IMG/VR virus record: IMGVR_UViG_3300037963_000603
Span: 1 to 35,937 of that record
Strand: one strand, 5' to 3'
From: a virus
Length of the DNA stretch: 35,937 bases
Each line of letters starts with the position of its first letter. Within the stretch, counting starts at the first letter, position 1. A program made the translations under genes and the position numbers. Shown piece by piece: positions 14,183 to 34,609 of the stretch. The notes under the pieces are model-generated. The model was not told where the DNA came from, did not search any database, and was given only the letters and a program-made list of their open reading frames with translations.

Positions 14183-15265
14183 TTAACCAATAGAAGGGGC
14201 AGTGAGAGCAACAGAAGTAGTATCAGCAGCCGCCAAATCAAGAGGGAAGTTATGTGCATTTCGTTCATGCATCACTTCGATACCAAGATTAGCACGATTA
14301 AGTACATCAGCCCAAGTCGGAATAACCTTAGTGCCATTTTCAGCTAGTACACTTTGATTAAAATTGAATCCATTTAGGTTGAATGCCATAGTACTAACCC
14401 CAAGAGAAGTAAACCAGATACCCACGACAGGCCAAGCAGCCAAAAAGAAATGCAGACTACGACTATTATTGAACGACGCATATTGAAAAATGAGACGACC
14501 AAAATAGCCGTGCGCCGCAACAATGTTATAAGTCTCTTCCTCTTGCCCGAACTTGTAGCCATAGTTCTGACTAACTTCTTCAGTCGTCTCACGAATAAGT
14601 GACGACGTGACCAGAGATCCATGCATAGCTGAGAACAATGCACCGCCAAAAACACCAGCAACTCCCAACATGTGGAAGGGGTGCATGAGGATGTTGTGTT
14701 CGGCTTGGAATACCAGCATAAAATTAAAAGTACCGGAAATGCCAAGAGGCATACCGTCTGAAAAGCTACCTTGTCCAAAAGGATACACAAGGAATACAGC
14801 AGACGCTGCAGCGACCGGAGCAGAGTATGCAACAAAGATCCAGGGCCTCATCCCAAGTCGGTAACTAAGTTCCCATTCGCGTCCCATGTAAGCAAAGACA
14901 CCGAGCAGGAAATGGAAGACGACCAGTTGGTACGGTCCGCCGTTGTAAAGCCATTCGTCAATAGAACTCGCTTCCCACATTGGGTACAAATGCAGACCGA
15001 TGGCGTTGCTGGAAGGCACGACAGCGCCGGAGATGATATTGTTTCCATACAGCAAGGATCCAGATACTGGTTCTCTAATTCCATCAATGTCTACAGGTGG
15101 TGCGGCGACGAACGCCATAATAAAACAAATTGCAGCAGCTAGTAGACACGGAATCATCAGTGTCCCAAACCAGCCGACGTATAAACGGTTATTTGTGGAC
15201 GTTACCCACGAACAGAAGTCCCCCCAATTTTGAGAGGCAGGCTGTTTAATTGATACAGAAGTCAT
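14183..15265 (-). CDS. psbA: Photosystem II reaction centre D1 protein
   Basis: This 360-residue D1 protein would replace damaged host D1 in the thylakoid membrane and keep photosynthetic electron flow running during infection. Five transmembrane segments are visible. Key residues sit at canonical positions: D170, E189, H190 near the Mn cluster and TyrZ, H198 (P680 ligand), H215 and H272 (iron ligands), and S264 (QB site). Residue 130 is Glu (MGREWELSY), the high-light D1:2 form rather than Gln. One residue is inserted near position 312 (AENGTKV), so the C-terminal ligands shift to H333, E334, H338 and D343, and the cleavage site to after DLA at 345. The ATG at 15265 gives the standard MTSV start; an upstream in-frame ATG is rejected. 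Confidence 0.98.
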
Positions 15266-16046: not shown

Positions 16047-16114
16047 TATTTTTTGGCTCCCTTTTTAGGGGGACGACCTTTTTTTGTACCGTAAGTTCCT
16101 TTACCGTAAGGCAT
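16046..16114 (-). CDS. Tiny basic ORF, 22 aa
   Basis: ATG at 16114 overlaps the hli stop (TGATG) and its TAA overlaps the next ATG (TAATG). The peptide reads MPYGKGTYGTKKGRPPKKG and ends in Lys-Lys. Perfect start-stop overlaps on both sides support translation by coupling. The RGRPP-like segment (KKGRPPKK) resembles an AT-hook, which binds the minor groove of AT-rich DNA; this is only a resemblance. Confidence 0.55.
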   Translation of the reverse strand: MPYGKGTYGTKKGRPPKKGAKK

Positions 16115-16305
16115 CACCATACTCCGGGGATAATTTGTCCAGTCAAGGCGTACGCACCAAGCGCAGCCATGACGCCTAGCATAGCCAGACGCCCATTAAG
16201 TTTTTCAGCTTTTTCATTGTGAGTTTCAGTGATGTCCATGATTGTCATTGGGGGTTCTTTTGCGTAAATGTTGGTGCGGCCGCCGTCTTCAGTTACAGTT
16301 GTCAT
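16114..16305 (-). CDS. hli: High-light inducible protein (HLIP)
   Basis: The 63-aa product carries the chlorophyll a/b-binding motif EKLNGRLAMLG (ExxNGRxAMxG) at residues ~33-45 followed by one transmembrane helix (VMAALGAYALTGQIIPG). HLIPs bind chlorophyll and carotenoid in the thylakoid and protect photosystem II assembly from excess light. The first ~30 residues are polar. It starts at the scaffold stop (16305) and ends in an overlap with the next ORF, so it is read from late mRNA with the head genes and psbA. Confidence 0.97.
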   Translation of the reverse strand: MTTVTEDGGRTNIYAKEPPMTIMDITETHNEKAEKLNGRLAMLGVMAALGAYALTGQIIPGVW

Positions 16306-21933: not shown

Positions 21934-22108
21934 TTTCAAGATAGTGAATAGCTTTTTTAAGATCCTCTTCTCTAGTATTCGGATTCTTGTGACCTGCTCT
22001 GCAAGTATATTTGATAACATTACCAAGGTGGTAGTTTAATTTTTGATCTCTAATAAAATCCCAAACTTCTATGGAACCTCTGGTGTAATGGGCGGGTGAT
22101 TTGGCCAT
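21788..22108 (-). CDS. DUF3310-domain protein, 106 aa
   Basis: Residues ~4-62 (PAHYTRGSIEVWDFI, then LGNVIKYTCRAGHKNP and EEDLKKAIHYLENEL) match the DUF3310 pattern found in many phages, including a region of T7 gp1.7, a nucleotide kinase. The ~45 residues after the domain are Pro- and Trp-rich and overlap the mazG frame, so they may be a neutral extension. The ATG overlaps the end of the nblA-like gene by 40 bases. Its place next to mazG and RNR suggests a role in nucleotide metabolism; no catalytic residues are known to me. Confidence 0.82.
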   Translation of the reverse strand: MAKSPAHYTRGSIEVWDFIRDQKLNYHLGNVIKYTCRAGHKNPNTREEDLKKAIHYLENELRHTPPTPSRGPLHSDLAKRTGDPVPDSVWINEWDWETDYATGFDR

Positions 22109-22305
22109 AGTTTTACTAAGTTACTAACTGTATTGGAAAGGACAAAATTTTGCCTCTGTAGTGCAACAAAGACTGTAATTAAATCCTCTTTCTCTGCCTG
22201 TGGTAAGAGATCATCCAGGCGTCTCATCTTGAACTGTTGCTCCATCGTCAACTCTGTAATTGGCGGTGGGGGTCCAAAGAATTGGTTGTTGTCGGTCAAA
22301 GTCAT
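22069..22305 (-). CDS. nblA: NblA-like phycobilisome degradation protein, 78 aa
   Basis: NblA is a small helical adaptor that delivers phycobilisomes to the host Clp protease and drives pigment loss. Residues ~17-62 fit its signature: ELTMEQQFKMRRLDDLL, then a loop, then a second helix ITVFVALQRQNFVLSN, compared with the NblA pattern L-x-x-EQQF-x-x-R followed by L-x-x-L-x-RQ and EN. A 17-residue Pro-rich N-terminal extension precedes it. The start overlaps the exonuclease gene by 95 bases and the end overlaps DUF3310 by 40, so it is easily missed by gene finders. nblA has been reported in freshwater and marine cyanophages. The match is by eye; if right, the host must have phycobilisomes. Confidence 0.72.
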   Translation of the reverse strand: MTLTDNNQFFGPPPPITELTMEQQFKMRRLDDLLPQAEKEDLITVFVALQRQNFVLSNTVSNLVKLWPNHPPITPEVP

Positions 22306-22981
22306 AGTCAGATGCTGTGAGGATCTTAGCGAGTCTTGCATTTTCTAGTGCAACATCTTCTGAAAGATCCTTGTCAGCAAAAGCTGTAACAACAGTCTTC
22401 CAAGAGTACCCTTTATCTTCAAATAGGGTAATTGCTCGTTTAACACCAATACCAGGTACACCAGAGTAACCATCTGTTTGATCCCCTGCTAGTGTTTGGA
22501 TTAGGTGCCAGCGTTTCCCTTCATGCTCTTCCACATTCACGGTTTCTTCCATGTCAAATAGTTTGCCAGGGATTTGACGCATATCTTTGTCAGGAGAGCA
22601 GATAATATTACCGGGATATTTTGTAGCATAAATACCTAAGGCATCGTCTGCCTCAAGTGTTGGCATAATGATCACTTCATACTCAGTCTTGAGTTGGTTG
22701 ATCACACGTTTATAACCACAAGGTTTTTTACGTTGCCGATGACCCTTGTATTCGGGTTGGATAGATTTACGAAAGTTTACACTGTCGCTAAAAAACAGAA
22801 CAAGTTCAGGTACATCCCATAAAAAATTTTGGGCTATTTTTTTAAGGTTACGGATAACGCTAGTATAAGCTTCACTAAACTTACTTGTAACTAAAATTAC
22901 ATCATCACCCCAATCAATTTCTGTTTCAGCTCCGGCACAGCATTTGTAGACTACGTAATCAGCGTCTACAAGTAACTTCAC
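22211..22981 (-). CDS. 5'-3' exonuclease (T7 gp6-like, FEN superfamily), 256 aa
   Basis: It degrades host DNA and removes primers during replication and recombination. Metal-binding motifs of the FEN/5'-nuclease fold are clear: LLVDADYVVY near the N-terminus, FFSDSVNFRKS, EADDALG (~residue 112), CSPDKDMRQ and GDQTDGYSGVPGIG (helix-hairpin-helix). The C-terminal ARLAKILTASDYDF...ILWTP matches the end of T7 gp6. The start codon is GTG at 22981, supported by a purine-rich region (GGACAGGG) just upstream and a GTGA overlap with the stop of the 36-aa gene. The last ~32 codons overlap the nblA-like gene. Confidence 0.93.
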   Translation of the reverse strand: MKLLVDADYVVYKCCAGAETEIDWGDDVILVTSKFSEAYTSVIRNLKKIAQNFLWDVPELVLFFSDSVNFRKSIQPEYKGHRQRKKPCGYKRVINQLKTEYEVIIMPTLEADDALGIYATKYPGNIICSPDKDMRQIPGKLFDMEETVNVEEHEGKRWHLIQTLAGDQTDGYSGVPGIGVKRAITLFEDKGYSWKTVVTAFADKDLSEDVALENARLAKILTASDYDFDRQQPILWTPTANYRVDDGATVQDETPG

Positions 22982-33665: not shown

Positions 33666-33980
33666 TTAAATAAGATAAGATTTGTCTAATCCAGCTGAAA
33701 GAATCATAGCATTACAAGCTTCTATATTTAACTTAAATCGTTCTTCTATTGGTTGGTTTAATAGAATAGCAACTAATTTAATGTTACAAATAATAGGTCT
33801 ATTGTTATAAACTGAGCAACGGTTTTGGTCATCTAATTTAGGGCAAGAACCGTCTAAATTAGGTTTATAAGGAAACCTATCAATTAATTCTTGTATAATA
33901 GGATTATCCGAACCGTGTTTAAGTACATCACCTAATTGTTTACAACATAAACCACAAGATGTACAAGGAAAAGTATCCAT
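33666..33980 (-). CDS. YkgJ-type cysteine-cluster protein, 104 aa
   Basis: The family signature is clear: CTSCGLCC near the N-terminus, then SCPKLDDQNRCSVYNNRPIIC. These cysteines bind zinc or an iron-sulfur cluster; the biochemical role of the family is unsettled. Length is at the lower end of the family. The ATG overlaps the thyX stop (33980), so the pair is co-translated; a link to ThyX, for example in metal or redox supply, is possible but unproven. Confidence 0.8.
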   Translation of the reverse strand: MDTFPCTSCGLCCKQLGDVLKHGSDNPIIQELIDRFPYKPNLDGSCPKLDDQNRCSVYNNRPIICNIKLVAILLNQPIEERFKLNIEACNAMILSAGLDKSYLI

Positions 33981-34609
33981 TAGCAGTACATAGCTGCGTA
34001 TACGTTAGGAAATTGTTGTTCTATAATATCTTTACATTGATCAGCAATCAATTTATGTTCATATTGAGTACCATTAGCACATCTAAGGTCTGTATAATGC
34101 AACCATGAGCGTAGGGTACCGTTCATATAGAGTGTAGTAGGTGTTGAAAGGGGAAGGATGTCTCTAGCACACTCTTTAGCTACACCAGCTTGTAACATCT
34201 CCTTATAAAGGCTCTCACTAAGATCAAACAAACTACTAATCTTTACGTTAAAGTCTTGAACTGTAATAGGATCTAAGTTATCAATACTATTCTGTCTATT
34301 CTTAGTATCTTGACGTCTTAGTTGCGGGATAGCGGCAGGTTTAACTACTTGAGCGTATCGTTGGGAGAACTCTTGAAAACTAAAGGATCTATGTCGTAAG
34401 ATTTGAGCAGCAACACTTCGGGTTGTCTCTATCTGTACACACATGTTCACCATTTCAAAAGGTGACCAATGTTTATGTTTAATAAGGTATTTAATCAAAC
34501 GTTCTGAGTTAGGGTTATCCTGGTTATCAGGATTAGATACTCTAGCCATATAGGCTATAAGTTGTTCAGCATCTGGTGTAGTATGTACTAATGATACTGT
34601 ATGATACAT
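33980..34609 (-). CDS. thyX: FAD-dependent thymidylate synthase
   Basis: ThyX makes dTMP from dUMP with methylene-tetrahydrofolate and NADPH through FAD, supplying the phage with thymidylate. The ThyX motif RHRxxSxxxxSxR is intact (RHRSFSFQEFSQRY), as are the N-terminal HKHWSPFEM segment (ThyX has H-x-SxxEH/M here) and RSWLHYTDLRCANGTQYE near the C-terminus. Length (209 aa) is typical. It follows the terminase terminator and starts without a clear Shine-Dalgarno sequence. Many cyanophages of this group instead carry other auxiliary metabolic genes at this end. Confidence 0.95.
   Translation of the reverse strand: MYHTVSLVHTTPDAEQLIAYMARVSNPDNQDNPNSERLIKYLIKHKHWSPFEMVNMCVQIETTRSVAAQILRHRSFSFQEFSQRYAQVVKPAAIPQLRRQDTKNRQNSIDNLDPITVQDFNVKISSLFDLSESLYKEMLQAGVAKECARDILPLSTPTTLYMNGTLRSWLHYTDLRCANGTQYEHKLIADQCKDIIEQQFPNVYAAMYC

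Follow-up and report, generated by a model that had tools for sequence, protein, structure and literature searches.

The window, by which we mean the whole 35,937-nucleotide stretch analysed (positions 1 to 35,937 of IMG/VR virus record IMGVR_UViG_3300037963_000603), carries an nblA-like gene that overlaps the exonuclease and DUF3310 genes of a T7-like cyanophage. We consider it likely, at roughly 80%, that this gene encodes a viral NblA, a two-helix proteolysis adaptor which would direct phycobiliproteins to the host Clp (ClpC) protease, and from this we infer dismantling of the phycobilisome. The observed basis is homology to NblA, a kept position, purifying selection, a predicted hairpin, and the presence of D1 and hli genes in the same genome. 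The preliminary description of this DNA had proposed an nblA-like gene in this arrangement, and the proposal is supported by Pfam, by a PDB search with a family profile, by the kept position and by purifying selection. The features are listed in Table 1.

Table 1. Positions of the nblA-like gene, its overlaps and the other genes considered here, in window coordinates
Feature	Positions	Strand	Basis and remarks
nblA-like gene	22069..22305	minus	78 aa; ORF, Pfam PF04485 31.4 bits (E 2.7e-7), kept start codon, selection
NblA domain	22111..22254	minus	residues 18-65; predicted two-helix hairpin; PF04485 positions 1-48/50 (E 9.7e-9)
Overlap of exonuclease C-terminus and NblA N-terminus, different frames	22211..22305	minus	95 nt
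Overlap of NblA C-terminus and DUF3310 N-terminus	22069..22108	minus	40 nt
T7 gp6-like 5'-3' exonuclease	22211..22981	minus	Pfam PF02739; phrog_107 exonuclease (E 4.1e-65)
DUF3310 gene ("nucleotide kinase" in phage annotation)	21788..22108	minus	Pfam PF11753 (E 1.5e-17)
psbA (D1)	14183..15265	minus	TIGR01151 736.8 bits, match from residue 12
High-light-inducible protein (hli)	16114..16305	minus	NGRLAMLG motif; Chloroa_b-bind 20.1 bits (cut-off 22.3)

The 78-codon ORF, read from the ATG to the stop, translates as MTLTDNNQFFGPPPPITELTMEQQFKMRRLDDLLPQAEKEDLITVFVALQRQNFVLSNTVSNLVKLWPNHPPITPEVP. A profile match to NblA was found for this protein: the Pfam NblA family (PF04485) scored 31.0-31.4 bits, over a curated cut-off of 25 bits, and aligned without gaps over profile positions 1-48 of 50. 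It was the sole PF04485 match in the whole record, and the same search of 14 control genomes was positive in Synechococcus elongatus only. A single-sequence search of the PDB found the NblA structure 3CS5 (E 0.0049). When a family profile of 12 relatives was used instead, the best four PDB matches were 3CS5, 1OJH, 2QDO and 2Q8V, all of them NblA crystal structures, with E-values that ranged from 3.2e-4 (3CS5) to 0.11 and were modest for the latter three. The NCBIfam NblA equivalog model (NF045916) gave 21.3 bits, below its cut-off of 100, so by the NCBI standard the protein is a diverged NblA homologue and not a canonical NblA or equivalog. On these profile matches, the 78-aa protein is a diverged member of the NblA family. 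It also falls within phrog_27006 of PHROGs (E 1.6e-19), which is listed there under "unknown function"; unlike our NblA-like reading of the window's protein, PHROGs assigns this group no function, and the matches above suggest that phrog_27006 deserves an NblA-like label.

AlphaFold modelling of a 64-residue core together with 37 varied sequences placed helices at residues 12-24 and 30-57 with a turn between them (mean pLDDT 84.9), which corresponds to about residues 21-33 and 39-66 in the 78-aa numbering. In the predicted monomer a short helix is followed, after a turn, by a long one, which resembles the two-helix hairpin expected of NblA. Modelling of the full 78 residues with 27 close homologues was poor (pLDDT 64.8), and the PDB structure search with that model returned nothing. 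Foldseek with the core model found no NblA and nothing significant in the PDB and viral libraries; a monomeric two-helix hairpin is a weak query. The missed equivalog cut-off and the Foldseek result would fit a small helical structural or regulatory protein of T7-like cyanophages whose likeness to NblA is convergent, and spurious profile matches are possible with small helical proteins. Against such convergence, the Pfam match is ungapped and lies above the curated cut-off, the family profile retrieved NblA at all four top places in the PDB, and the family is restricted to phages of phycobilisome-bearing cyanobacteria and the sister Prochlorococcus. We regard convergence as very improbable and homology to NblA as the better account.

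In the single-sequence alignment, PPLPDFSLSVEQQF of 3CS5 aligns with PPPPITELTMEQQF of the window's protein, and residues 12-64 of 3CS5 align without gaps. The NblA structures 3CS5, from Synechococcus elongatus PCC 7942, and 1OJH, from Anabaena, resemble the phage protein in their (PP)-x-x-x-L-x-x-EQ(Q)F start and in having two helices of similar lengths. The phage protein differs from both in about 11 extra N-terminal residues, in a C-terminal tail of 10-13 residues, and in the low identity of helix 2. A proline-rich N-terminal extension had been described earlier as unusual for NblA. This does not hold, as the solved NblA 3CS5 is also proline-rich before helix 1 and only the first ~11 residues are extra. 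The GPPPP segment is almost invariant in the phage family.

The protein is widely distributed among related phages. By tblastn it was found in 37 phage records, all of them marine fosmids or T7-like cyanophages from the sea, estuaries or reservoirs, and 228 IMG/VR viral contig stretches encode it. A 100% identical copy is present in two other IMG/VR contigs, and identity elsewhere is at most 86-87%. A search of cyanopodovirus genomes for the same overlapped ORF was successful: in all 13 phage records inspected, which span many Autographiviridae genera, the gene lies between the exonuclease gene and DUF3310, MazG or ribonucleotide reductase genes. None of the 13 names it NblA, and those of S-TIP37, S-RIP2, NATL1A-7 and S-SBP1 annotate nothing there. 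Because it is overlapped by two neighbours, the gene is easily overlooked, and many public records omit it or call it hypothetical. Among the marine and estuarine cyanopodoviruses, the isolates examined (S-TIP37, S-RIP2, S-CBP1, S-CBP3, S-CBP4, P-SSP7 and others) share with the window both an nblA locus that overlaps the exonuclease gene and the start GPPPP-x-LT-x-EQ-x-x-K-x-R; unlike these isolate-borne genes, the window's copy comes from an uncultured contig. A later study is said to have dealt with an nblA mutant of S-TIP37.

The gene had been called "hidden" in the preliminary description. This is true of many GenBank records, in which it is unannotated, but not of the family, which was already recognised. 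According to a 2022 article (PMC9602691), Nadel et al. (2019, Environ Microbiol Rep 11:848) predicted nblA in 14 cyanopodovirus isolates. Viruses of this kind are already known to carry nblA, and what is new here is another member. The freshwater cyanophages Ma-LMM01, MaMV-DC and PaV-LD also carry nblA; they belong to other virus families, and in Fig. 5 of PMC9602691 their genes are placed, by phylogeny, far from the cluster of marine cyanopodoviruses.

Purifying selection was measured in a core of 102 nt which is free of either neighbour and carries most of the NblA domain. In 71 distinct sequences this core had pS 0.737, pN 0.174 and omega 0.065, the omega values here and below being simple Nei-Gojobori averages across related sequences and not likelihood estimates. 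The same core DNA contains stops in 70 and 67 of the 71 sequences when read in the two other frames. In 18 relatives that share the window's layout, pS of the exonuclease gene was 0.366 upstream and fell to 0.253 within the nblA overlap, and its pN rose from 0.070 to 0.174; in this overlap, constraint is common to both frames. It could be argued that the ORF is a non-coding frame kept open by the constraints on exonuclease and DUF3310, since these neighbours overlap more than half of it and the annotators of the four phages named above omitted it. The NblA domain, though, spans the 102 nt without overlap, where synonymous change far outweighs nonsynonymous change, the other frames are closed in 67-70 of the 71 sequences, and a Pfam NblA match is not expected of an artefact. 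The artefact is thereby refuted, and we give it a negligible probability. Because the protein is encoded by 37 phage records and 228 viral contig stretches and its core has this low omega, the ORF is confirmed as a real gene and not a chance reading frame.

The 95-nt and 40-nt overlaps that had been reported with the exonuclease and DUF3310 genes agree exactly with the ORFs at 22981-22211 and 22108-21788. The 40-nt overlap is identical in size in 72 of 91 relatives, and the overlap with the exonuclease gene varies from 56 to 122 nt across the 91 sequences. The longest open frame begins 12 codons upstream of the ATG at 22305, at 22341, and would give 90 aa. This longer start was ruled out, as it is unconserved and in-frame stops interrupt the 12 upstream codons in 18 of the 91 relatives. 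The codon equivalent to 22305 is ATG in 89 of the 91; together with the upstream stops, this makes the 78-aa form the conserved one. The ATG at 22305 lies where the exonuclease gene encodes a conserved Asp-Tyr-Asp, so the conservation of the start is by itself weak evidence, and no clear Shine-Dalgarno sequence was seen before it in the window. For these two reasons we consider 22305 the probable, not the proven, translation start. An alternative is the ATG at residue 21, directly ahead of EQQF, where methionine is found in 89% of 71 sequences.

The position of the gene between the exonuclease gene and the DUF3310, MazG-like and ribonucleotide reductase genes places it in the DNA-metabolism (middle) module. 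The D1 gene that had been noted in the same genome was confirmed by the TIGR01151 match; this match begins at residue 12 of the longest ORF, and a psbA start at that residue agrees with the D1 family. The high-light-inducible protein noted earlier was upheld in part, as the NGRxAMxG motif is present in 16305-16114 but the Pfam score is slightly below its cut-off. Elsewhere in the window, the minus-strand ORF at 33666-33980 encodes a CxxCxxCC-type putative metal-chelating protein (PF03692) and adjoins a ThyX-like thymidylate synthase gene (33980-34609).

The nearest relatives are fosmid MedDCM-OCT-S04-C24 (81%) and S-RIP1 of Synechococcus WH8101 (79%). Among phage psbA genes, that of S-RIP1 was closest, and every psbA match came from Synechococcus phages. 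Because both the nearest phages and the psbA matches point to Synechococcus, a phycobilisome-bearing marine Synechococcus is most likely the host. In S-RIP1 (NC_020867.1) the nblA-like frame is broken mid-gene at an A-rich run, so that only pieces match, and an HNH endonuclease gene follows directly, ahead of DUF3310; this may mean that the S-RIP1 nblA has decayed or was misread, and that a homing endonuclease inserted next to it.

A Pfam NblA search of 151 picocyanobacterial-family genomes gave 5 matches at E 0.01, one of them above the cut-off, and the host donor of the phage gene could not be traced by this search. The small number of matches agrees with the divergent host nblA-like gene of picocyanobacteria (PMC7439483). 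A search of the same 151 genomes with the phage profile gave two matches, of which the good one was a phage contig. Pfam NblA and PHROGs under-call marine NblA. One picocyanobacterial-family assembly includes a T7-like phage contig, 41,955 bases long, on which an NblA-like protein of 95 aa is encoded in the same position, overlapping the exonuclease gene; it scores 23.1 bits with Pfam NblA. The cell may have been infected, the contig may be a provirus, or it may be a contaminant.

If the protein acts as other NblA proteins do, it would pair into a four-helix dimer, bind phycobiliproteins during infection and deliver them to the host Clp (ClpC) protease, by which the phycobilisome would be dismantled. 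The freed amino acids could then enter phage protein synthesis, and less energy would reach photosystem II, whose reaction centre would meanwhile be kept functional by D1 and HLIP of the phage. The timing of these steps and their benefit to the phage would follow known NblA biology. Phycobilin loss followed expression of nblA genes recovered from marine viral metagenomes and of freshwater phage nblA genes, including copies from the group of Ma-LMM01, MaMV-DC and PaV-LD (PMC9602691). Small phages would in this way combine antenna disposal (NblA) with reaction-centre maintenance (D1, HLIP).

The preliminary description had also held that the host must have phycobilisomes. Prochlorococcus uses other antennae and has neither phycobilisomes nor an nblA orthologue (PMC7439483). 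Constrained homologues are present at the same place in P-SSP7, P-SSP3, NATL1A-7 and P-GSP1 (host MED4 according to its record), which are phages of Prochlorococcus, so the gene alone is no proof of a phycobilisome-bearing host, and the claim has to be withdrawn. In the P-SSP7-like group, 68 distinct sequences gave a core omega of 0.095 and the 41 closest ones 0.067, a constraint of the same strength as in the window's group; its environmental contigs are inferred from their likeness to P-SSP7 to infect Prochlorococcus. Pfam NblA fails to detect the copies of P-SSP7, P-SSP2, NATL1A-7 and P-GSP1, which implies a changed surface for these copies.

These observations raise the possibility that the phage protein, while homologous to NblA, is a Clp adaptor whose principal targets lie outside the phycobilisome, in the photosystems or among host proteins in general, phycobilisomes being just one target or not a target at all. 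The equal constraint on the P-SSP7-like core in phages of a phycobilisome-free host, the diverged P-GSP1 copy at the same place and the invisibility of the Prochlorococcus-phage copies to Pfam speak for it. The window's copy, on the other side, belongs to the branch of Synechococcus phages that Pfam NblA detects, and phycobilisomes are an abundant target there. T7-like cyanophages may moreover cross hosts, and Prochlorococcus retains remnant phycoerythrin genes. For the window's gene we consider this alternative unlikely and retain phycobiliproteins as the probable target. For the T7-like cyanophage family as a whole, we suggest tentatively, with less than even odds, a general adaptor through which Clp would receive other host proteins during infection and whose target range shifted between Synechococcus and Prochlorococcus phages. 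Our literature search found no paper on the role of the constrained nblA-like copies in Prochlorococcus phages. Their existence in phages of a phycobilisome-free host makes it a testable question what phage NblA proteins degrade.

Two further features of the Prochlorococcus-phage copies were observed. In P-GSP1 (NC_020878.1, Prochlorococcus MED4), the strongly diverged NblA-like protein KLTLHQDLQMREIELALYEIDKKTMIELYLKLQEQLFKFNNILVPLLKE is encoded by a gene that overlaps the end of the exonuclease gene and is followed at once by ribonucleotide reductase, DUF3310 being absent from this place. Of 83 P-SSP7-like sequences, 16 have ACG and 5 have TTG where the nblA start codon is expected, which indicates that the start differs or is non-canonical in that branch.
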